Below, one piece after another: positions 20,925-33,770 of a stretch of 43,309 nucleotides of DNA (within the stretch, counting starts at the first letter, position 1; each line of letters starts with the position of its first letter). The stretch comes from a virus. The notes under the pieces were generated by a model. It ran no database searches, had not been told where the DNA came from, and saw only the letters and a list, made by a program, of their open reading frames with translations. Both the position numbers and the translations under genes were made by a program. The DNA lies in the IMG/VR virus record IMGVR_UViG_3300042516_003060, positions 1-43,309 of that record. One strand, written 5' to 3'.

Positions 20925-20938
20925 CAACCACCAACCAC
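20925..20938 (+). repeat. CAACCACC leader repeat
   Basis: CAACCACCAACCAC, 13 nt before the ATG at 20952. Confidence 0.6.
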
Positions 20939-21132: not shown

Positions 21133-21156
21133 CAACCACCAACCACCAACCACCAC
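21133..21156 (+). repeat. CAACCACC leader repeat (longest tract)
   Basis: Three CAACCAC units plus a trailing CAC, 6 nt before the ATG at 21163. Codons 2-8 of that gene are also ACC triplets. Confidence 0.65.
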
Positions 21157-21162
21157 GGGCTG

Positions 21163-21927
21163 ATGACCACCACCACCACCACCACCGACCTTGTGCAGGC
21201 CAGCGCTGCTGAGCTGGCGCTGATGCAGCTGCAGCAGGAGTCGGCCACTTGTGCGGGCGTTCTGCCGTATTGGCCGATCTGGGCCGCTGCGCAGTTCGCC
21301 AGCACTGACGAAGCAATGCAGCTGCTGCAGTTCGTGCATGTCTGGCGCGATGGCGACTGCTTTCAGATTGAGAGCACCGATGGCCACAGGGCGTTCCGCT
21401 ACCGGTTCCCTGCGTACACCACCGAGACCTACGGCAACGGTGCTGCGATCGGCAGCATGCCCACGCTCTGGCGCGTGCCTGAAGCAGGGCTGCTGCTGCA
21501 CGCCAAAGCGCTCAAGAAGGCTGTGAGCTACGGCAAGTTGCTGACCGTCACGCAAGACCTGCGCGCGGTGTTTCACGGGGGCAAGAAGGAGGCCCTGGTC
21601 GAGCTGAGCTCGGTGAACCTTGCCGGTGTGTTTGCGGTGAACACCGCGGATGACTGCGGCAAGGTCGGCACTTACCCGATCATCAACCAGCTCTGGCCTG
21701 ACAAGTTCAGCAACCAACCCAAAGACGGGTTTGCATTCAACGCGCGCTACATGCGCGAGTGGTGCGCAGTGGTTGAGAAGCTCTCGCACAACGGGGTTAC
21801 GAAAGCGCAGTGCAATGCGGCCGTCACTCCGTTCGTTTGGAACTGCAGCTACGAGCCCGCGATCGGGCAGCACGGGGCCGAGCCACGCCTCGAGCTGCTG
21901 TTGATGCCGGTGCAAATCCGCAAGTGA
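21163..21927 (+). CDS. Beta sliding clamp-like protein (two-domain size)
   Basis: The product has 254 residues; bacterial DnaN has about 366. Motifs recall DnaN: FQIESTDGHRAFRYRF (TDGHR at residues 72-76, as in the bacterial TDGHRLA loop), YPIINQLWPDKF (like YPDYRQLIP), FNARYMREW (like FNxxYLLD) and a C-terminal LELLLMPVQIRK (like YxVMPMRL). It seems to lack about one of the three clamp domains, so it may act as a higher oligomer or as a decoy. It would tether a polymerase to DNA, most likely the host Pol III, because no phage polymerase is present. The start follows a CAACCACC leader and has a run of seven Thr codons. Confidence 0.7.
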   Translation: MTTTTTTTDLVQASAAELALMQLQQESATCAGVLPYWPIWAAAQFASTDEAMQLLQFVHVWRDGDCFQIESTDGHRAFRYRFPAYTTETYGNGAAIGSMPTLWRVPEAGLLLHAKALKKAVSYGKLLTVTQDLRAVFHGGKKEALVELSSVNLAGVFAVNTADDCGKVGTYPIINQLWPDKFSNQPKDGFAFNARYMREWCAVVEKLSHNGVTKAQCNAAVTPFVWNCSYEPAIGQHGAEPRLELLLMPVQIRK

Positions 21928-23588: not shown

Positions 23589-23605
23589 CGCCGCACGTAT
23601 TGCAA

Positions 23606-23923
23606 ATGGATATTCGTCAGCTGGAAAACGCTCTGGCTGCTTTCTCCGCTCTCAGCCCAACGGCGTTCCCGGTCCACCACGCTGAGATCTTCCTGTTTGT
23701 CGCCGGCAAGCGCATCGCCACCTACACCGAAATCGAGGACGCCCTGAACCTCTCCAACTCCACGGTGTCGCGCACGGTTCACGCCCTGGGCGACACCCAT
23801 CGCAGGGGCTACGAGGGCTATGGCCTCCTCGAGACCTACCGAGATCCAGAAGAAGGCCGCCGCTTCGTCGTTCGCCTCACCGCCAAGGGCCACGCCCTGC
23901 TCAGGCAGCTCGAAAAGCTCTGA
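23606..23923 (+). CDS. MarR-like winged-helix regulator
   Basis: The 105-residue product starts with ATG, without a Shine-Dalgarno. HHAEIFLFVAGKRIATYTEI, EDALNLSNSTVSRTVHALGD (recognition helix), then GLLETYRDPEEGRRFVVRLT (wing) and AKGHALLRQLEKL form a compact MarR-type domain. It lies between an operator-like palindrome and the integrase gene. It is a likely controller of integrase and early genes, perhaps autoregulated at 23577. The short length and missing N-terminal dimer helix differ from full MarR proteins. Confidence 0.75.
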   Translation: MDIRQLENALAAFSALSPTAFPVHHAEIFLFVAGKRIATYTEIEDALNLSNSTVSRTVHALGDTHRRGYEGYGLLETYRDPEEGRRFVVRLTAKGHALLRQLEKL

Positions 23924-23932
23924 GCTCTCCAC

Positions 23933-23954
23933 CAACCACCAACCACCAACCACC
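23933..23954 (+). repeat. CAACCACC leader repeat before integrase
   Basis: Three CAACCAC units ending in CACC directly abut the ATG at 23955. No Shine-Dalgarno is present. Confidence 0.65.
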
Positions 23955-24953
23955 ATGGCCGGCTCTGTCCGACGCACCGCTGACGGTTGGGTTGCCGATG
24001 TCACCGTGAACGGCACCCGCAAAACCAGCCTCTGCCGCACCAAGGCCGAGGCCCTCGCACGCAAGCGCGAAATCCTCGAGCTGCTGCTCACCCGTGAAGC
24101 CAAGCAGCCACGCCTCGCACGCATCTTCACTATCAAGGAGGCCCGGGCCCTGAGCCTCCGCATCCGCTGGGCTGGCACGCCCTACGAGCGCACCGCTGCC
24201 ACCTACAGCCGCGAAGCGGTTGAGCACTTCGGCGATCTGTTCCCCGTCAGTGAGGTCACGGCCGCCCTGGTCGATGCCTGGCGCCAGCAGCTGCTGCGCA
24301 AGGGCAACCGCCCCAGCACCGTCAACAAGAAGACTGCCGCCATCCGGGCGATGCTCTCCGATGCCCACCTCCACGGCCACCTCGAGGAGGTGCCGCGGAT
24401 GCCCCAGCAGCTGCGCCTCTCCAACACCCGGGACCGGGTGATGAGCGACCCCGAACGGGACGCCTTCTGCCGCTACTTCCACCAGGTCGGCGAGCCCGCC
24501 GCGGCCGATCTGCTGGTCTTCCTGCTGGAGACTGCCTGCCGCTGGGGTGAGGCCGAGCGCCTGCGCGGCCAGGACGTGGACCTGGCGAAGGGGCGCGTCA
24601 CCTTCTGGAAAACCAAGAACGGCAAGCCCAGGTCAGTGCCGCTCACCCGCCGGGCCCTCGATGCCCTGCAGCCCCACCTGCCAGCCGTTGGCAGCCATCG
24701 GGTTTGGCCCTACCGCTACGAGCGCTACAAGACCCTGTTTCGCAGCGCCAAGGGCGCCATGGGGCTGGCCAATGACGAGGCCCTCACCATCCACACCACC
24801 CGCCACACCTGCGCGAGCAAGCTCGCCAGCCGGGGCATCCCCCTGCACCAGCTGATGGCCTACGGGGGGTGGACCAGCCTCGCCAGCGTGCAGCGTTACC
24901 TGCACCTGCACACCGACGCACTGGCGGCCTGCGTCTCGGCACTGGAGGATTGA
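23955..24953 (+). CDS. int: Tyrosine recombinase (integrase)
   Basis: The product has 332 residues. The N-terminal arm-binding-like part (residues 1-50) is followed by a core-binding domain (60-155) and a catalytic domain with R196 (ETACRWGEAERL), Lys in WKTKNGKPRSVPL, H280 and R283 (HTTRHTCASKL), W306 (YGGWTS) and nucleophile Y315 (VQRYLHL). The set is complete, so the enzyme looks active. It would join phage DNA to a host tRNA-Leu gene; a half tRNA-Leu lies 1 kb downstream. The ATG at 23955 follows a CA-repeat leader. A MarR-like gene sits just upstream and a small membrane gene 3 nt downstream. Confidence 0.93.
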   Translation: MAGSVRRTADGWVADVTVNGTRKTSLCRTKAEALARKREILELLLTREAKQPRLARIFTIKEARALSLRIRWAGTPYERTAATYSREAVEHFGDLFPVSEVTAALVDAWRQQLLRKGNRPSTVNKKTAAIRAMLSDAHLHGHLEEVPRMPQQLRLSNTRDRVMSDPERDAFCRYFHQVGEPAAADLLVFLLETACRWGEAERLRGQDVDLAKGRVTFWKTKNGKPRSVPLTRRALDALQPHLPAVGSHRVWPYRYERYKTLFRSAKGAMGLANDEALTIHTTRHTCASKLASRGIPLHQLMAYGGWTSLASVQRYLHLHTDALAACVSALED

Positions 24954-26093: not shown

Positions 26094-26105
26094 CTCTGCG
26101 CAGAG
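26094..26105. promoter_or_regulatory. Palindrome CTCTGCGCAGAG at RNA polymerase start
   Basis: A perfect 12-bp palindrome made of the same TCTGC/GCAGA half-sites without the 4-nt spacer. It overlaps the GTG start. Confidence 0.4.
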
Positions 26106-28516
26106 TGAAATCCAACTTTTTCGTGTCCACCTGCCACTTGGAGAGGCAGAAGCAGACCGAAAAGAGGGAGCGCGAGCGGGCTGAGTGGGATGCGATCAAC
26201 GCCCGAAGCAGGCTCAAGGCCCAGGGCCGCGAAAGCGCCACCGAGTACGGCAGGGACCTGTTTCAGCGGCACGCCGAGACCGTGACGGTGGCCCTGGGCC
26301 TGCTGCTCGAGGAGCTGCTGGCCAACCCAGCCAAGGCCGGCCCGCACTTCGCCGCCTGGCCATTGCTGCTGGGGGTGTCCGACCGTGGCCCCCGCTCGCT
26401 GGCCAGCATCGCCCTGGGGGTGGTGGTCGATCAGATCAGCCAGCGGCCCACCGAACGCAAGCTGGCCGGTGACATCGGCCGCGCCCTGCAGGACGAGCTC
26501 AAGGCCGGCCGGATCAATGCCATCAACCCCGACCTGGTGCGGCTGATCCGCAAGCGCAAGGGGGCCCGGGCCCTCAGCAACAACAAGGTGCTCGAACAGC
26601 TGCGCCTGGACTGCAGCGGCTGGACCGTGGCCGAGCGGGTTGAGGCCGGCGGGCTGATGTTGCAGCTGATCGTGGCCAACACCGATCTGCTGGAGGTGGA
26701 GACCAGCATCAGCAGGGGCCGGACCCGCCGCACCCTGCAGGCCACCGCCGCAGCGCTGGAGGTGATCGCCGCCAACCCGCCGCGGCCATGGCCTGCGCGC
26801 CGCCTGCCCATGCTCGTGCCGCCGCGGCCCTGGGAGGGAATGCACGGTGGCGGCCACCTCGACAACACCCAGCCGCTGGTGCGCAGCCGTGGTGGGCTGA
26901 AGCTCGATCACCTGCACGGGCCGGCGCTGGCCCCGGTGATCGCAGCGGTCAACACCCTGCAGCAGCAGGAGCTGCGCGTCGATCCATGGATCGTGGAGAT
27001 GCAGCGCTGCGCCTGGGACCACAACATTCGTGGCCTGTTCCCCCTGCTGCGCGACCCCAAGCCTGAGCCGCCCAAGCCGACCGAGCTGCTGGGCCCCGAG
27101 GCCTACAAGGAGTGGCAGCGCCAGAAGCTGGAGGCCCAGCGGGACCGGAACGAGGGGGCGAACGAGCGCAGCAGAATCGAGCAGGCCATCCGCCAGTGCG
27201 AGGAGGTGGCCGGGCTGCCCATCTGGTTCGCGTACTGCGCCGACTTCCGCGGCCGGATCTACACCAGCAACCGCTACGCCACCCACCAGGGGCCGGACTG
27301 GGAGAAGGGGGCGATCGAGTTTGCCCATGGTGAGCAGTGCTCAGTGGAGGCCTTCGAGTGGATGCTCAAGGCCGCCGCCGGCCACTGGGGGGTGCGGGCC
27401 AGCTGGGATGTGCGGCTGCGCTGGGGGCAGGAGAACCTGCCAGAGATCTGCGCTGTGGCCGAGGCCCCGCTCGATCGGATTGAGCTGTGGCGTGATGCCA
27501 AAGACCCGTGGCAGTTCCTGCAGCTGGCCCGGGCCATCGCCCAGCAGGTGGCCGAGCCGAACAGCTGCAGCACCGTGCCGGTGCGGTTCGACCAGACCTG
27601 CAGCGGGATCGGCATCGTGTCGGCCCTGGTGCGGGACCGCCGGCTGGCCCAGCTCACCAACATCAGCGGCAAGACCCGCAAGGACCTCTACGAGCATGTG
27701 GCCCACAAGCTGCAGCACATGCTGCGGCTGGACCTGAGCAACGGCACCGAGAAAGAGCAGGCCAAGGCTGCGTTCTGGCTGGAATTCGGCATCGACCGGG
27801 CCCTGTGCAAAGGGCCGGTGATGACCACCATCTATGGGGCCCAGTTCCTGGGCATCGTTGAGGGACTGGTGGCTGCGCTTGAGCAGCGGCGTGGCCGGCT
27901 GCACCTGTCGCAGTGGGCCAGCGGCGATCTGGCGCCGGCCCGCTACCTCGCCCGCAAGTTCGGCGTGCTGCTGGGCGCCGAGCTCAAGAGCTGCATCGAG
28001 CTGCAGCGGTGGCTGCGGGACATGGGCCGGGCCGTGCTGGCCAATGGCATGCCGATCACCTGGGCCAGCCCCATGGGCATGCCGATCCGGCTGGGTGACC
28101 TGCTGGATGCCCGCAGCAACGTGACGACCCTCGCCCATGGCAACCGGCGGTGGCGCACCTGGAAGGACAGGGCCGAGGAGGGCGAGCTGTCGGCACGGCA
28201 GACCAACCGGGCGATCACCGCCAATTTCGTCCACTCGTTCGACGCCGCCCTCTGCCAGCTATTGATCTCCAGGTGTGGGGAGCATGGTGCGCCACTCCTA
28301 ACAAATCACGATTGCTTTGCGACAACTCCGGCGCGCGCCTACTGGCTGCACCACACGCTGCACGACGAGCTGCGCTGCCTCTATGCCACGGATTGGCTGG
28401 CCGAGATCGCAGGCCAGATCAAGGCTGCATCAGGAGTTCGGGGGATCAAGTCGCCGCCGTGCGTAGGCGATCTCTGCCACGGGGAGATCGGGCAGAACAC
28501 GCATTGCTTTTCCTGA
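26105..28516 (+). CDS. T7-like single-subunit RNA polymerase
   Basis: The product has 803 residues; T7 RNAP has 883. Motifs line up: DFRGRIYTSNRYATHQGPDW (T7 DWRGRVY), motif A RFDQTCSGIGIVSALVRD with D496, the O-helix CKGPVMTTIYGAQF with K569 and Y577 (spaced 8, as T7 K631 and Y639), NFVHSFDAALCQLL, and motif C NHDCFATTP with D736. The N-terminus is a basic helix (ERQKQTEKRERERAEWD). It would transcribe middle and late phage genes. GTG 26105 is chosen as the first in-frame start after a palindrome; its Shine-Dalgarno is weak (GCAGAG). The last 200 bases are slightly more AT-rich. Confidence 0.97.
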   Translation: MKSNFFVSTCHLERQKQTEKRERERAEWDAINARSRLKAQGRESATEYGRDLFQRHAETVTVALGLLLEELLANPAKAGPHFAAWPLLLGVSDRGPRSLASIALGVVVDQISQRPTERKLAGDIGRALQDELKAGRINAINPDLVRLIRKRKGARALSNNKVLEQLRLDCSGWTVAERVEAGGLMLQLIVANTDLLEVETSISRGRTRRTLQATAAALEVIAANPPRPWPARRLPMLVPPRPWEGMHGGGHLDNTQPLVRSRGGLKLDHLHGPALAPVIAAVNTLQQQELRVDPWIVEMQRCAWDHNIRGLFPLLRDPKPEPPKPTELLGPEAYKEWQRQKLEAQRDRNEGANERSRIEQAIRQCEEVAGLPIWFAYCADFRGRIYTSNRYATHQGPDWEKGAIEFAHGEQCSVEAFEWMLKAAAGHWGVRASWDVRLRWGQENLPEICAVAEAPLDRIELWRDAKDPWQFLQLARAIAQQVAEPNSCSTVPVRFDQTCSGIGIVSALVRDRRLAQLTNISGKTRKDLYEHVAHKLQHMLRLDLSNGTEKEQAKAAFWLEFGIDRALCKGPVMTTIYGAQFLGIVEGLVAALEQRRGRLHLSQWASGDLAPARYLARKFGVLLGAELKSCIELQRWLRDMGRAVLANGMPITWASPMGMPIRLGDLLDARSNVTTLAHGNRRWRTWKDRAEEGELSARQTNRAITANFVHSFDAALCQLLISRCGEHGAPLLTNHDCFATTPARAYWLHHTLHDELRCLYATDWLAEIAGQIKAASGVRGIKSPPCVGDLCHGEIGQNTHCFS

Positions 28517-28566
28517 TCGCCTAGGTGCCTTGCCCGTTTGCAGCTAGGGGCGTATGGTCTCAATGC

Positions 28567-28582
28567 ACTGCACATGTGGCGA
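28567..28582 (+). promoter_or_regulatory. Candidate promoter dyad upstream of SSB
   Basis: ACTGCA-CATG-TGGCGA ends 4 nt before the SSB ATG. It argues against the upstream ATGs at 28554 and 28563 as the SSB start. A CCTAGGTG site lies at 28520-28527. Confidence 0.5.
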
Positions 28583-28586
28583 GCAA

Positions 28587-29258
28587 ATGGCGCGCACGAT
28601 GTTGACCACCCCCGTAGGCGATGCCTACTGGGCCAAATGCTTCGAGCCTGAGGAGGACCGCTTCCACAAGGACAAGCCCTGCAGCTGGTCGATCAGCTGG
28701 TGTGGCGATCAGAACGACAAGGCCACCCTTGGCCTGATGCAGCAGATCGAGGAGGAGTTCGCTCGCATCCACGGCGAGGGCGCCAAGCCCAGCAAGAACG
28801 CCTGGCCGTTCCGCGAGCAGACCGACAAGGACGGCAAGGCCACGGGCCTGCTGGAGTTCCGCTTCAAGAAGAACGAGACCACCAAGAAGGGGAACCTGCT
28901 CTCGCCGCCGGCCGTCTACGACAGCCACAAGAACCCCTGGCCCGATGGGGTGCTGATCGGCAACGGCAGCAAGGTGAAGGTGGCGTTCTCCGTCTGGGGC
29001 TGGGAGGACCAGTTCGGCAAGAAGGGCGTGAGCCTGAGCTTTGAGGCCCTGCAGGTGCTCGACCTGGTGGAGTACCAGCGGAAGGATCCCGGCGATGCGT
29101 TCGGGGTGGAGAACGGCTACGTGGCCGACACCCCGGCCAATGCCTTCACAGAAGACAAGAAGGAGGAGGAGCTCACCCCCAGCCAGCGGATCCAGCGGCG
29201 TGCCGCTGAGCTGCAGAACGAAAGCCTCTACGACGACGAAGAAGAGGCTCCGTTCTGA
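28587..29258 (+). CDS. Single-stranded DNA-binding protein (T7 gp2.5-like)
   Basis: The product has 223 residues; T7 gp2.5 has 232. MARTMLTTPVGDAYWAKCF resembles the gp2.5 N-terminus; KSVxxSxxxWGWEDQFGKKGVSLSFEALQV (paraphrased) gives the OB-fold strands. The C-terminus is the acidic tail DDEEEAPF, ending in Phe, the hallmark of gp2.5 and bacterial SSB interaction tails. It coats single-stranded DNA in replication and recombination and recruits partners through the tail. ATG 28587 is chosen over 28554 because the promoter-like dyad sits between them. Its stop overlaps the rusA ATG. Confidence 0.9.
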   Translation: MARTMLTTPVGDAYWAKCFEPEEDRFHKDKPCSWSISWCGDQNDKATLGLMQQIEEEFARIHGEGAKPSKNAWPFREQTDKDGKATGLLEFRFKKNETTKKGNLLSPPAVYDSHKNPWPDGVLIGNGSKVKVAFSVWGWEDQFGKKGVSLSFEALQVLDLVEYQRKDPGDAFGVENGYVADTPANAFTEDKKEEELTPSQRIQRRAAELQNESLYDDEEEAPF

Positions 29259-29617
29259 TGCGCACCGCCGACTTCGAGCTCCGCGTTCCGTTGATGTCGA
29301 AGGCCCGGCCCCGTTCCCCCCGGGGCGGCGGCCGGCCCTACATGCCCAAGGCCTACATGCAGTGGAAGGCCACGGTGCGGGCGCTGCTCGCTGAGTGGTG
29401 GACCATCGCCCCGCTGCCCGAGGTGAAGTGCCTCTGCCTGGTGTTTCGCGGGCCGGCCCGGGGCGACCTCGACAACCTCGCTGGCGCGGTGCTCGATGCC
29501 GGCAACGGCCTGCTGTGGACCGACGACCGGGTGGGCGTGATGCCCTGCATGGCCCTGCGCTGGGTGAAGACCGGCCGCGACAACCAATCCATCTACCTGA
29601 AGGTGATCTGGGAATGA
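29258..29617 (+). CDS. rusA: RusA-like Holliday junction resolvase
   Basis: The 119-residue product starts at an ATG overlapping the SSB stop. KARPRSPRGGGRPYMPKAY is the basic N-terminal strand; GDLDNLAGAVLDAGNG then WTDDRVG is the RusA core. D70 and D72 sit at the same numbers as in E. coli RusA, with D89/D90 near D91. The Lys usually found at position 76 (DLDNLLKAV in the family) is Gly here. It cleaves four-way junctions, replacing the T7 gp3 endonuclease, and so helps to process replicating DNA before packaging. Confidence 0.88.
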   Translation: MRTADFELRVPLMSKARPRSPRGGGRPYMPKAYMQWKATVRALLAEWWTIAPLPEVKCLCLVFRGPARGDLDNLAGAVLDAGNGLLWTDDRVGVMPCMALRWVKTGRDNQSIYLKVIWE

Positions 29618-29781
29618 GCCCCTATCCGCCGATCAATGAACAGTTCTGCGGCAACTGCCGGTACTTCCGGCAGGGCGAATGCCGCTGCAAATCGCCGGCC
29701 TACGACTGGGGCGGCCTGTGGCCCAAGCCCCCGGCCTCGTCGTGGTGCGGTGAATGGGCGTCGCCGGAGGTGGCGGCATGA
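29614..29781 (+). CDS. Small Cys-rich zinc-finger-like protein
   Basis: The 55-residue product starts at an ATG overlapping the RusA stop (ATGA), and its own stop overlaps the next ATG. FCGNCRYFRQGECRCKSP and WPKPPASSWCGEW form the C-x2-C, C-x-C, W-C-G-E-W pattern of a small phage family that probably binds zinc. Function is unknown. The tight overlaps place it in the replication operon. Confidence 0.75.
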   Translation: MSPYPPINEQFCGNCRYFRQGECRCKSPAYDWGGLWPKPPASSWCGEWASPEVAA

Positions 29782-30359
29782 AGTGCCCACACTGCGGCCA
29801 CGAGAAAAGCCGGGTCACTGAAACCCGGGCCGGCGATGAGGCCGACCGCCGGATCCGCATTTGCCAGGGCTGTGCGCGCACTTTCCAAACCCTCGAACGG
29901 GTGTGTGTGTTCGCCGGCAGGGCCGCCGGCTACGTGGAGGTGGGTGAGCCAGTCCCTGCCCTGCAGGTGGTGCCTGACCCTGAACCCCAGACCGAGCCCG
30001 CCGCGGCCAAGCGGGCGAACACTCGCCGCTGGCATCCGGTCGGCGTGCCGGAGGGGGTGTGCGAGGAGGCGGCCCCGCTGCTGCTTGAGTGGTGGAACGA
30101 GAGCCGCCGCCTTAAGCACAAGGGGAACGCCGTCTGGTCGGAGAAGGCATGGCTGGCCAGCGTCGAGCGGGTCAAGGCCCTGCCCCCTGCCCAGCAGGTG
30201 GCCCTCTGTCAGGCCGGTGTCGAGCAGGGATGGCAGGCCCTCAAGGCCGATTACCTGCGCGACGGTGCGGCCCGGCTGCCGCAGCTGCCCCGCAGCGATG
30301 GCCGGCCCATGCCGAAGGACCCCTCCATGCTCGCTGCTCTGGAGTCATGGCCAGCCTGA
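29778..30359 (+). CDS. NrdR-type zinc-ribbon protein with helical C-terminus
   Basis: The product has 193 residues and its ATG overlaps the upstream stop. Residues 1-45 (MKCPHCGHEKSRVTETRAGD, RRIRICQGCARTFQTLERV) are the NrdR-like two-CxxC ribbon. A Pro/Ala linker follows, then residues 85-175 form a helical domain (PLLLEWWNESRRLKHKGNAV, WLASVERVKALPPAQQVALC, VEQGWQALKADYL) resembling the C-terminal part of phage replication or primosomal helper proteins. NrdR's ATP cone is absent. Its place beside SSB, resolvase and a loader-like gene suggests a role at the replication fork. Confidence 0.7.
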   Translation: MKCPHCGHEKSRVTETRAGDEADRRIRICQGCARTFQTLERVCVFAGRAAGYVEVGEPVPALQVVPDPEPQTEPAAAKRANTRRWHPVGVPEGVCEEAAPLLLEWWNESRRLKHKGNAVWSEKAWLASVERVKALPPAQQVALCQAGVEQGWQALKADYLRDGAARLPQLPRSDGRPMPKDPSMLAALESWPA

Positions 30360-30910
30360 CGCCCGAGACCTTCCTGGCGGTGGCCGACATGATCGCCGGC
30401 CACCTGCGGCTGAAAGAGGCAGACCGCTGGAGCCCGCACATCTGCCGGCTGAAATTCTTCAGCTTCACCAGTGAGTTCCCCGAGATCAGCGAGGCCCAGT
30501 TCATGTGGGCCGCTGAGCAGTGGATTCAGGGCACCGATGCCTCAGCCTTCCTTCGCTACCCCACCTGGGGTGAGCTCATGGCAGCGCTGTACCGGACAGA
30601 AGGCGGCCGGGCCAATCGCAGCTGGGGCCCGAGGGATGAGCTGCCGCCGTTCGTGCGGTTCAAGCCCGACCAGCTGGCGCTGCTGCCCACTGCACCCCGG
30701 CCGCTGGCCCCGCCGCCAGACGATCGCAACGTCGAGGCGTACCGCACGGTGGGCAGGGCCGGGGAGGCCGAGGCCCAGGGCCTCCCGCTGAAGCCAGCCG
30801 AGGAGCACCTGCTGCCGCCGGCGGTGCCCGGCCTGACCGATGAGCAATGGCAGGCCTACCTCGAGCAGGTGGACAGCCAGACGCTGGAGGAGGCGCCATG
30901 CAACTCCTGA
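30347..30910 (+). CDS. Unknown; possible helicase-loader-like protein
   Basis: The 187-residue product starts at an ATG 12 nt inside the preceding gene. Residues 1-90 are helical: PETFLAVADMIAGHLRLKEA, LKFFSFTSEFPEISEAQFMW, AAEQWIQGTDASAFLRYPTW, GELMAALYRTEGGRANRSW. Helices plus a 'FP-x-ISE-x-QF-x-W ... YPTWGEL' pattern loosely recall G39P-type helicase loader domains. The second half is Pro-rich and disordered, with LPPFVRF and a helical end (TDEQWQAYLEQVDSQTLEE). If it loads the host DnaB, it would explain replication without a phage helicase. This is inference from weak resemblance. Confidence 0.6.
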   Translation: MASLTPETFLAVADMIAGHLRLKEADRWSPHICRLKFFSFTSEFPEISEAQFMWAAEQWIQGTDASAFLRYPTWGELMAALYRTEGGRANRSWGPRDELPPFVRFKPDQLALLPTAPRPLAPPPDDRNVEAYRTVGRAGEAEAQGLPLKPAEEHLLPPAVPGLTDEQWQAYLEQVDSQTLEEAPCNS

Positions 30911-33029: not shown

Positions 33030-33770
33030 ATGAAAGCCCTCATCGACACCGAGGTTTATCTCTACCGCTCAGCCGCAGCTTGCGAGTTCGAGGCGGAATG
33101 GGGCCCCGATGACTGGACCTACCTCTGCCGCCACGGCGATGCGCAGGCAGCGTTCCAGGATGCCATCGGCGAGATCCGCGACACCCTCCCCGATCATCAG
33201 CCGGTGCTGGTGTTCAGCGATCGGGTCTCCTTCCGCTATGGCGTCTGGCCCCAGTACAAGGCCAACCGCAAGGCCAACCGCAAGCCCGCCGGCTACCGGC
33301 AGCTGGTGGACTGGGTGAGCAAGGCGGCCCCGGCCCGTGGCTGGGAGGTGATGAGGCTGCCCGACATCGAGGGCGACGACGTGCTCGGCGTGCTCTACGA
33401 GGAGGGCGACGTGATCGTGTCGATCGACAAGGACATGCTCACCCTGCCCGGCCTGCACCTGCGCGATGGTGAGCGGATGGAAGTGAGCCGGCTGGAGGCC
33501 GACCGCAACTTCTACGCCCAGGTGCTGACCGGGGACACCAGCGATAACTACCCCGGCTGTCCGGGCTATGGCCCGGTGACGGCACAGAAGGCCCTGGCCG
33601 GTTGTGATGCAGAGGTGCAGATGTGGGCCGAGGTGCTCAAGGCCTACGACAAGAAGGGCTATGGCGAGGCCTATGCCATCACCCAGGCACGGTGCGCACG
33701 CATCCTTCGCGCTGGCGAGTACGACTTGACGGCCGGGGCTCCCCTGCTATGGAACCCGCCGGTAGCCTGA
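33030..33770 (+). CDS. 5'-3' exonuclease (T7 gp6-like, FEN family)
   Basis: The product has 246 residues; T7 gp6 has 300. LIDTEVYLYRSAAACE gives the first metal-binding Asp; SFRYGVWPQYKANR is the family's basic helix; MRLPDIEGDDVLGVLY and VIVSIDKDMLTLPG give the acidic pairs; LTGDTSDNYPGCPGYGPVTA is the helix-3-turn-helix. It removes RNA primers and degrades host DNA ends. The N-terminal region is complete, so it looks active. The start directly follows the CACTCGCTCTAA repeat, with no Shine-Dalgarno. Confidence 0.92.
   Translation: MKALIDTEVYLYRSAAACEFEAEWGPDDWTYLCRHGDAQAAFQDAIGEIRDTLPDHQPVLVFSDRVSFRYGVWPQYKANRKANRKPAGYRQLVDWVSKAAPARGWEVMRLPDIEGDDVLGVLYEEGDVIVSIDKDMLTLPGLHLRDGERMEVSRLEADRNFYAQVLTGDTSDNYPGCPGYGPVTAQKALAGCDAEVQMWAEVLKAYDKKGYGEAYAITQARCARILRAGEYDLTAGAPLLWNPPVA

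Follow-up and report, generated by a model that had tools for sequence, protein, structure and literature searches.

A short phage DnaN homolog that retains the client-binding pocket of the beta clamp and lacks domain I and half-domain IIIa

The window analyzed here, that is, the entire stretch of 43,309 nucleotides (IMG/VR record IMGVR_UViG_3300042516_003060, positions 1 to 43,309), is recorded as a viral contig, possibly a fragment, and comes from a phage related to the freshwater cyanopodovirus S-SRP02 (77% identity over 53% of the query). Its gene content includes a T7-type RNA polymerase, a gp2.5-like single-stranded DNA-binding protein, RusA, a 5'-3' exonuclease, integrase, terminase, portal, and capsid. 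On the plus strand lie the genes for the single-subunit RNA polymerase (26105..28516; phrog_414, 1.1e-128), the gp2.5-like protein (28554..29258; phrog_112, 2.7e-23), a genuine RusA-like resolvase (29258..29617; phrog_140, 1.9e-11), and the 5'-3' exonuclease (33030..33770; PF02739, 5.9e-13, and PF01367, 9.3e-7, below cut-off). A zinc-ribbon protein encoded at 29754-30359 resembles the N-terminus of NrdR (PF22811, 4.7e-10). At 23600-24953, in its early region, this T7-like phage additionally encodes a winged-helix, MarR-like regulator and a tyrosine integrase, both shared with S-SRP02, which hints that the phage may have a temperate option.

The gene that concerns us here (21163..21927, plus strand) encodes a protein of 254 amino acids plus the stop codon, with a homologous start region that is conserved in 20 phage sequences. 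It is the first larger rightward gene after a divergent intergenic region, preceded only by an ORF of 55 codons, and its S-SRP02 counterpart is the first rightward gene there; this position at the start of the early region fits early expression. A promoter scan upstream of the gene found nothing. Just upstream of the start codon, there are two overlapping copies of the leader CAACCACCAACCACC (21133..21154, plus strand). This repeat occurs on the plus strand at 20925, 21133, 21140, 21983, 22393, 23933, and 23940, just 5' of several early ORF starts, with 12 matches at no more than 2 mismatches compared to 0.07 expected, and possibly replaces the Shine-Dalgarno site. The exact 14-mer was found in only 2 of the 172 loci compared (three copies in L005 and one in L022).

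When searched as a single sequence, the protein produced no match in Pfam or in the PDB, and only weak matches to PHROG 3007 (E = 2.6e-4) and to PHROG 947, a processivity factor family (E = 0.008); E. coli DnaN used as the query had no match in the window, which indicates that the cyanophage branch is strongly diverged. All 20 members of the cyanophage group, which comprises relatives from viral contigs and one metagenome-assembled genome (MAG) contig, match PHROG 3007 (best, 1.7e-18) and PHROG 947 (best, 2.3e-8). E. coli DnaN itself matches PHROG 3007 at 6.5e-24, and the short clamp of the E. coli phage Bas81 matches E. coli DnaN in BLASTP at 2e-13; the nearest other phage proteins to the cyanophage group are such short enterobacterial forms. 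A search of the PDB with the family profile retrieved almost exclusively bacterial beta clamps, and in a fold search these accounted for 50 of the 50 matches listed. The central domain II is clear from profile and fold comparison at the family level; the corresponding Pfam profile, PF02767, does not match the window protein, matches 6 of its 20 close relatives weakly, and exceeds the cut-off in Bcep781 and Vibrio 1.098.O. At the level of sequence, then, homology to DnaN is firm through the family profiles and the chain of intermediates, and weak for the single protein; combined with the architecture described below, the identification of this gene as a real beta-clamp homolog is well supported. 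The DnaN-like motifs noticed in the first-pass annotation accordingly are homologous rather than chance matches and correspond to defined positions of E. coli DnaN: TDGHR to T172-R176, YPIINQLWP to the P242-V247 region, FNARYM to F319/N320/Y323, and LLMPVQ to V360-R365. One close relative of the protein (67% identity) is encoded by the MAG contig RFQY01000156.1, which is called Rhodobacteraceae and probably is a mis-binned phage contig.

Given that E. coli DnaN matches PHROG 3007, this is a DnaN family, mislabeled as a 'RusA-like Holliday junction resolvase'; the genuine RusA of the window phage matches phrog_140. In the sequence records, the family goes by varying names, namely, 'DNA polymerase III beta subunit', 'hypothetical', and, via PHROG 3007, 'RusA-like resolvase'. 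The erroneous name has been inherited by RefSeq and GenBank records (for example, L032, 19977-20513, and L039, 5998-6579). PHROG 12598, likewise labeled RusA-like Holliday junction resolvase, matches 8 of the 20 members of the cyanophage group. In the Edwardsiella phage PEi21 (L043, 2501-3028), a single in-frame stop codon in the record has split the annotation of the gene into two ORFs.

DnaN consists of three domains, each formed by two beta-alpha-beta-beta-beta modules, six in all. It is well supported that the window protein contains three of these modules, IIa, IIb, and IIIb, and lacks domain I and half-domain IIIa, the bearers of the dimer interface; we refer to such proteins as mini-clamps. 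The protein starts with a group-specific, poorly conserved tail (residues 1-29, 21163..21249; pLDDT 37-59) that is absent from relatives of 165-194 amino acids. Module IIa follows (residues 30-83, 21250..21411), with TDGHR at residues 72-76 and the pocket positions L55 and T72/G74/H75/R76, and matches module IIa of the full-length DnaN of Synechococcus phage S-H1 with 32.7 bits and that of E. coli with 14.7 bits. Module IIb (residues 110-152, 21490..21618) is predicted to form strands 110-113, 124-130, 134-139, and 146-152, with the inner helix nearly gone; half-domain profiles gave no sequence match between this region and IIb of E. coli or S-H1, so that in the cyanophage branch this module is putatively assigned, by position and predicted fold only. 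Domain II ends with YPIINQLWP (residues 171-179, 21673..21699), where P172 corresponds to E. coli P242 and the pocket residues Q176/L177 to R246/V247. Then, a short linker (21700..21738) replaces half-domain IIIa, about 57 residues that include those of the dimer interface, and leads into module IIIb (residues 190-250, 21730..21912), where N193/Y196 correspond to N320/Y323 and L246-Q251 to V360-R365. All of these segments are on the plus strand.

Several lines of evidence converge on this arrangement. The spacing between the equivalents of P242 and N320 is 21 residues in the window protein and 19-23 residues in 23 of 23 divergent phage mini-clamps (165-254 amino acids) versus 78 in E. coli. 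The C-terminal part of the window protein matches IIIb (11.9 bits for S-H1 and 5.4 bits for E. coli), not IIIa (at most 0.1 bits), and half-domain profiles of the wider family give 49.4 bits for IIa, 22.9 for IIb, and 24.9 for IIIb compared to 2.3 for IIIa and about -2 for domain I, that is, no match for the latter two. The assignment of the last helix to IIIa, suggested by one MAFFT run, was overturned by these profiles in favor of IIIb. The domain I profile, PF00712, is absent from the window protein and from every mini-clamp genome searched and is present in S-H1; of the domain III profile, PF02768, only positions 68-121 of 121 match in the relatives. The AlphaFold2 model of the window protein (pLDDT 80.8) contains three modules (residues 30-83, 110-152, and 190-247), and so does the model of a 178-amino acid enterobacterial form (pLDDT 87.5), in which IIb has no inner helix. 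The comparison of predicted structures with DnaN that the first-pass annotation called for thus yields a clamp fold, the enterobacterial model superposing on E. coli clamp structures with a TM-score of up to 0.69 and an rmsd of about 4 Å. The domain count given there does not hold: in place of two of the three domains, the protein has one and a half, its length being inflated by the unconserved tail of about 30 residues. Nor does it resemble a two-domain subunit that trimerizes like T4 gp45 or PCNA; with three modules, without domain I, half of domain III, and the listed dimer-interface residues, it does not support this reading, which is rejected on the module count obtained from the models, the spacing, and the half-domain profiles.

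The retained and missing parts differ in what they contribute to the clamp. The client pocket of the E. coli protein is formed by R152, L155, T172, G174-L177, P242, R246, V247, N320, Y323, V344, V360, and M362-R365, and the dimer interface by I78, R103, and F106 together with I272, L273, E298, and E304 (reviewed in PMC11139829). All of these pocket residues fall in the retained parts and all of the listed interface residues in the missing ones. Across 23 divergent mini-clamps, the 18 pocket columns are more conserved than the rest (0.671 versus 0.405, p = 1e-8, in an alignment that included a DnaN construct without IIIa and whose columns are not independent), and pocket residues make up 6 of the 7 most conserved columns. 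In a smaller alignment of E. coli DnaN with eight mini-clamps, there are six invariant columns, all in the pocket (T172, G174, P242, Y323, M362, and P363). The window phage carries the pocket substitutions R152M, L177A, R246Q, M364V, and R365Q. In ordinary DnaN, too, these residues are the most conserved part, so that such conservation attests to the retention of the pocket and does not reveal its clients. Although IIIa is lost from the interior of the sequence, the residue positions suggest that IIIb would border domain II and IIIa the next subunit, so that the retained modules would form a continuous arc, IIb, IIa, IIIb, centered on the pocket. A head-to-tail dimeric ring would not be expected, with the interface residues lying in the missing parts, and the mini-clamp is likely to be monomeric or, at least, not to encircle DNA.

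The mini-clamps are widespread. A tblastn search with the Bas81 protein found relatives in at least 301 GenBank phage records, 289 of these over at least 80% of the query, in phages of Salmonella, Escherichia, Vibrio, Klebsiella, Acinetobacter, Pseudomonas, Burkholderia, and others. In viral contigs, most of the closed ORFs of relatives are 170-268 amino acids long, with a minority of 290-470 amino acids that includes full-length clamps, and the top fold matches in BFVD are mostly short clamps of 178-266 amino acids.

The first-pass annotation had further noted that the phage lacks a DNA polymerase. This stands for the window, where no family-A DNA polymerase (PF00476) was found, but not for the family at large. 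The complete S-SRP02 genome likewise yielded no family-A match; its annotated 'DNA polymerase I' (L011, 22389-23129) corresponds in place and length to 33030-33770 of the window, and this counterpart carries only the 5'-3' exonuclease domains. The 'DNA polymerase' marker used for the published tree of S-SRP02 probably is this exonuclease. Most of the records searched, the window included, contain no family-A match; however, EP23, Bcep781, fFiEco03, and PhiXhv-5 do, and PEi21 encodes another polymerase, so a strict link between mini-clamps and polymerase-less phages was dropped. The mini-clamp gene lies beside the polymerase gene in PEi21 and PhiXhv-5, in the latter between those for the helicase and the polymerase, and next to the primase and methylase genes in IME_EC2 and IME279. 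No canonical clamp-binding motif was found in the five polymerases of carrier phages that were checked or in the identified DNA enzymes of the window phage, which makes host proteins the likelier clients. A phage-encoded partner with such a motif was considered and dropped, the only candidate being QLALL in the protein encoded at 30341-30910, which is changed to QLAAL in S-SRP02. Among the window proteins scanned, there is no clamp loader.

What could a clamp that does not close around DNA accomplish? A monomeric mutant of beta, with an affinity for the clamp-loader subunit delta about 50-fold that of the dimer, does not support processive replication and still binds DNA (PMC11139829). A pocket without a ring can engage clients, yet it would not be expected to tether a polymerase, which favors a diverter of clients over a sliding clamp. 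Since it is precisely the client pocket that has been preserved, the earlier proposal of a protein that captures or poisons the clients of the host clamp is still the best explanation; the function itself is inferred. We give about even chances to the possibility that the mini-clamp is a ringless arc of DnaN modules (IIb, IIa, IIIb) around a pocket for the QLxLF-type clamp-binding motif and acts as a decoy or diverter. Under this scenario, the protein would be made early in infection and would compete with the host clamp for its clients, the candidates being clamp-loader delta, Pol III alpha, Pol II/IV/V, MutS/MutL, and Hda, which would be diverted from the host DNA to the benefit of the phage. 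A phage that relies on the host Pol III would harm itself if all clients were trapped, so that selectivity would be needed; and the carriers with their own polymerase, including PEi21 and PhiXhv-5 where the genes are adjacent, also fit a direct role in replication.

The main rival of the decoy is an adaptor, with the pocket docking host Pol III, the clamp loader, or other proteins, and other surfaces or a phage partner tethering them to phage DNA, thereby aiding phage replication instead of blocking the host. The frequent location of the gene in replication modules (IME_EC2, IME279, PhiXhv-5), the failure to find a polymerase in the window phage and in the complete S-SRP02, and the DNA binding by monomeric beta (PMC11139829) are all compatible with this; however, no partner or DNA-binding module was identified, and carriers with their own polymerase have no obvious need for an adaptor, so that we consider it unlikely, if far from negligible. 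An unusual ring, a true sliding clamp closed by several mini-clamps, for example, four of three modules each, appears improbable: the case for it is the arithmetic of 12 modules and the predicted inter-module arrangement, which follows the E. coli arc, whereas the mini-clamp lacks the known interface residues, the DNA-facing helix of IIb has disappeared from the enterobacterial model and is almost lost from that of the window protein, and no clamp loader was seen among the window proteins scanned. There is similarly little chance that the protein is a processivity or accessory factor for phage DNA enzymes such as a polymerase or exonuclease, as its adjacency to the polymerase genes of PEi21 and PhiXhv-5 might suggest, given the lack of canonical clamp-binding motifs in the five phage polymerases examined and of family-A matches in most of the records. 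A non-functional remnant of a host dnaN gene, as implied by the truncation and by the record of Bcep781-15, which notes a 'DNA Pol III b subunit fragment', is hardly credible in view of intact ORFs in at least 301 phage records with a uniform architecture and conservation focused on the pocket.

Extending the decoy reading to the entire family, we propose, more tentatively and with somewhat less than even confidence, a widespread phage strategy whereby a pocket-only, ringless clamp serves as a soluble trap or diverter of host clients, such as delta, and so gives phages control of the host replisome, with no need for a phage-encoded one. Bacterial replication and repair converge on the clamp pocket, which is also a drug target. 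A protein reduced by nature to this pocket, and carried by hundreds of phages that infect Enterobacteria, Vibrio, Burkholderia, Pseudomonas, Acinetobacter, and cyanobacteria, would offer an off-the-shelf tool to probe or inhibit clamp traffic and, if the proposed function is correct, would represent a new means by which phages take over or shut down host replication. The wrong 'RusA-like resolvase' label conceals many members of the family, which hence is easily missed. The assignment to the beta-subunit family is not new, being already present in GenBank and in the S-SRP02 paper; a search of openly accessible papers found such annotations and no description of the truncated architecture or the function. 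What appears new, relative to this openly searchable literature, is the truncated, pocket-only clamp architecture and the likely mode of action.

Compared with bacterial DnaN (PF00712 + PF02767 + PF02768), the mini-clamps are homologous and share domain II, the second half of domain III, and the client pocket residues but lack domain I, half-domain IIIa, and the dimer interface, and are 165-254 rather than about 366 amino acids long. The full-length DnaN of Synechococcus phage S-H1 (AZB50554.1) is homologous to the mini-clamp in domain II and IIIb and, unlike it, has all three domains. T4 gp45 and PCNA are trimers of two-domain subunits, with four modules per subunit; they have the clamp superfamily in common with the mini-clamp, which, with its three modules, matches DnaN better. 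The direct relative of the window protein is p014 of S-SRP02 (QTP86370.1, 'DNA polymerase III beta subunit'), 38% identical and in the same genomic place, although diverged in the middle part and with an annotation that is silent on the truncation. The window protein belongs with the short clamps of PHROG 3007 (Bas81 gp46, XPK43503.1, Sf11 gp36, Bcep781-15, EP23p08, IME_EC2_14, and fFiEco03 FE3_005), with which it shares the profile match, the short II + IIIb architecture, and the motifs; the cyanophage group differs from the others, of 165-225 amino acids, by the extra N-terminal tail of about 30 residues and a longer connection between IIa and IIb.
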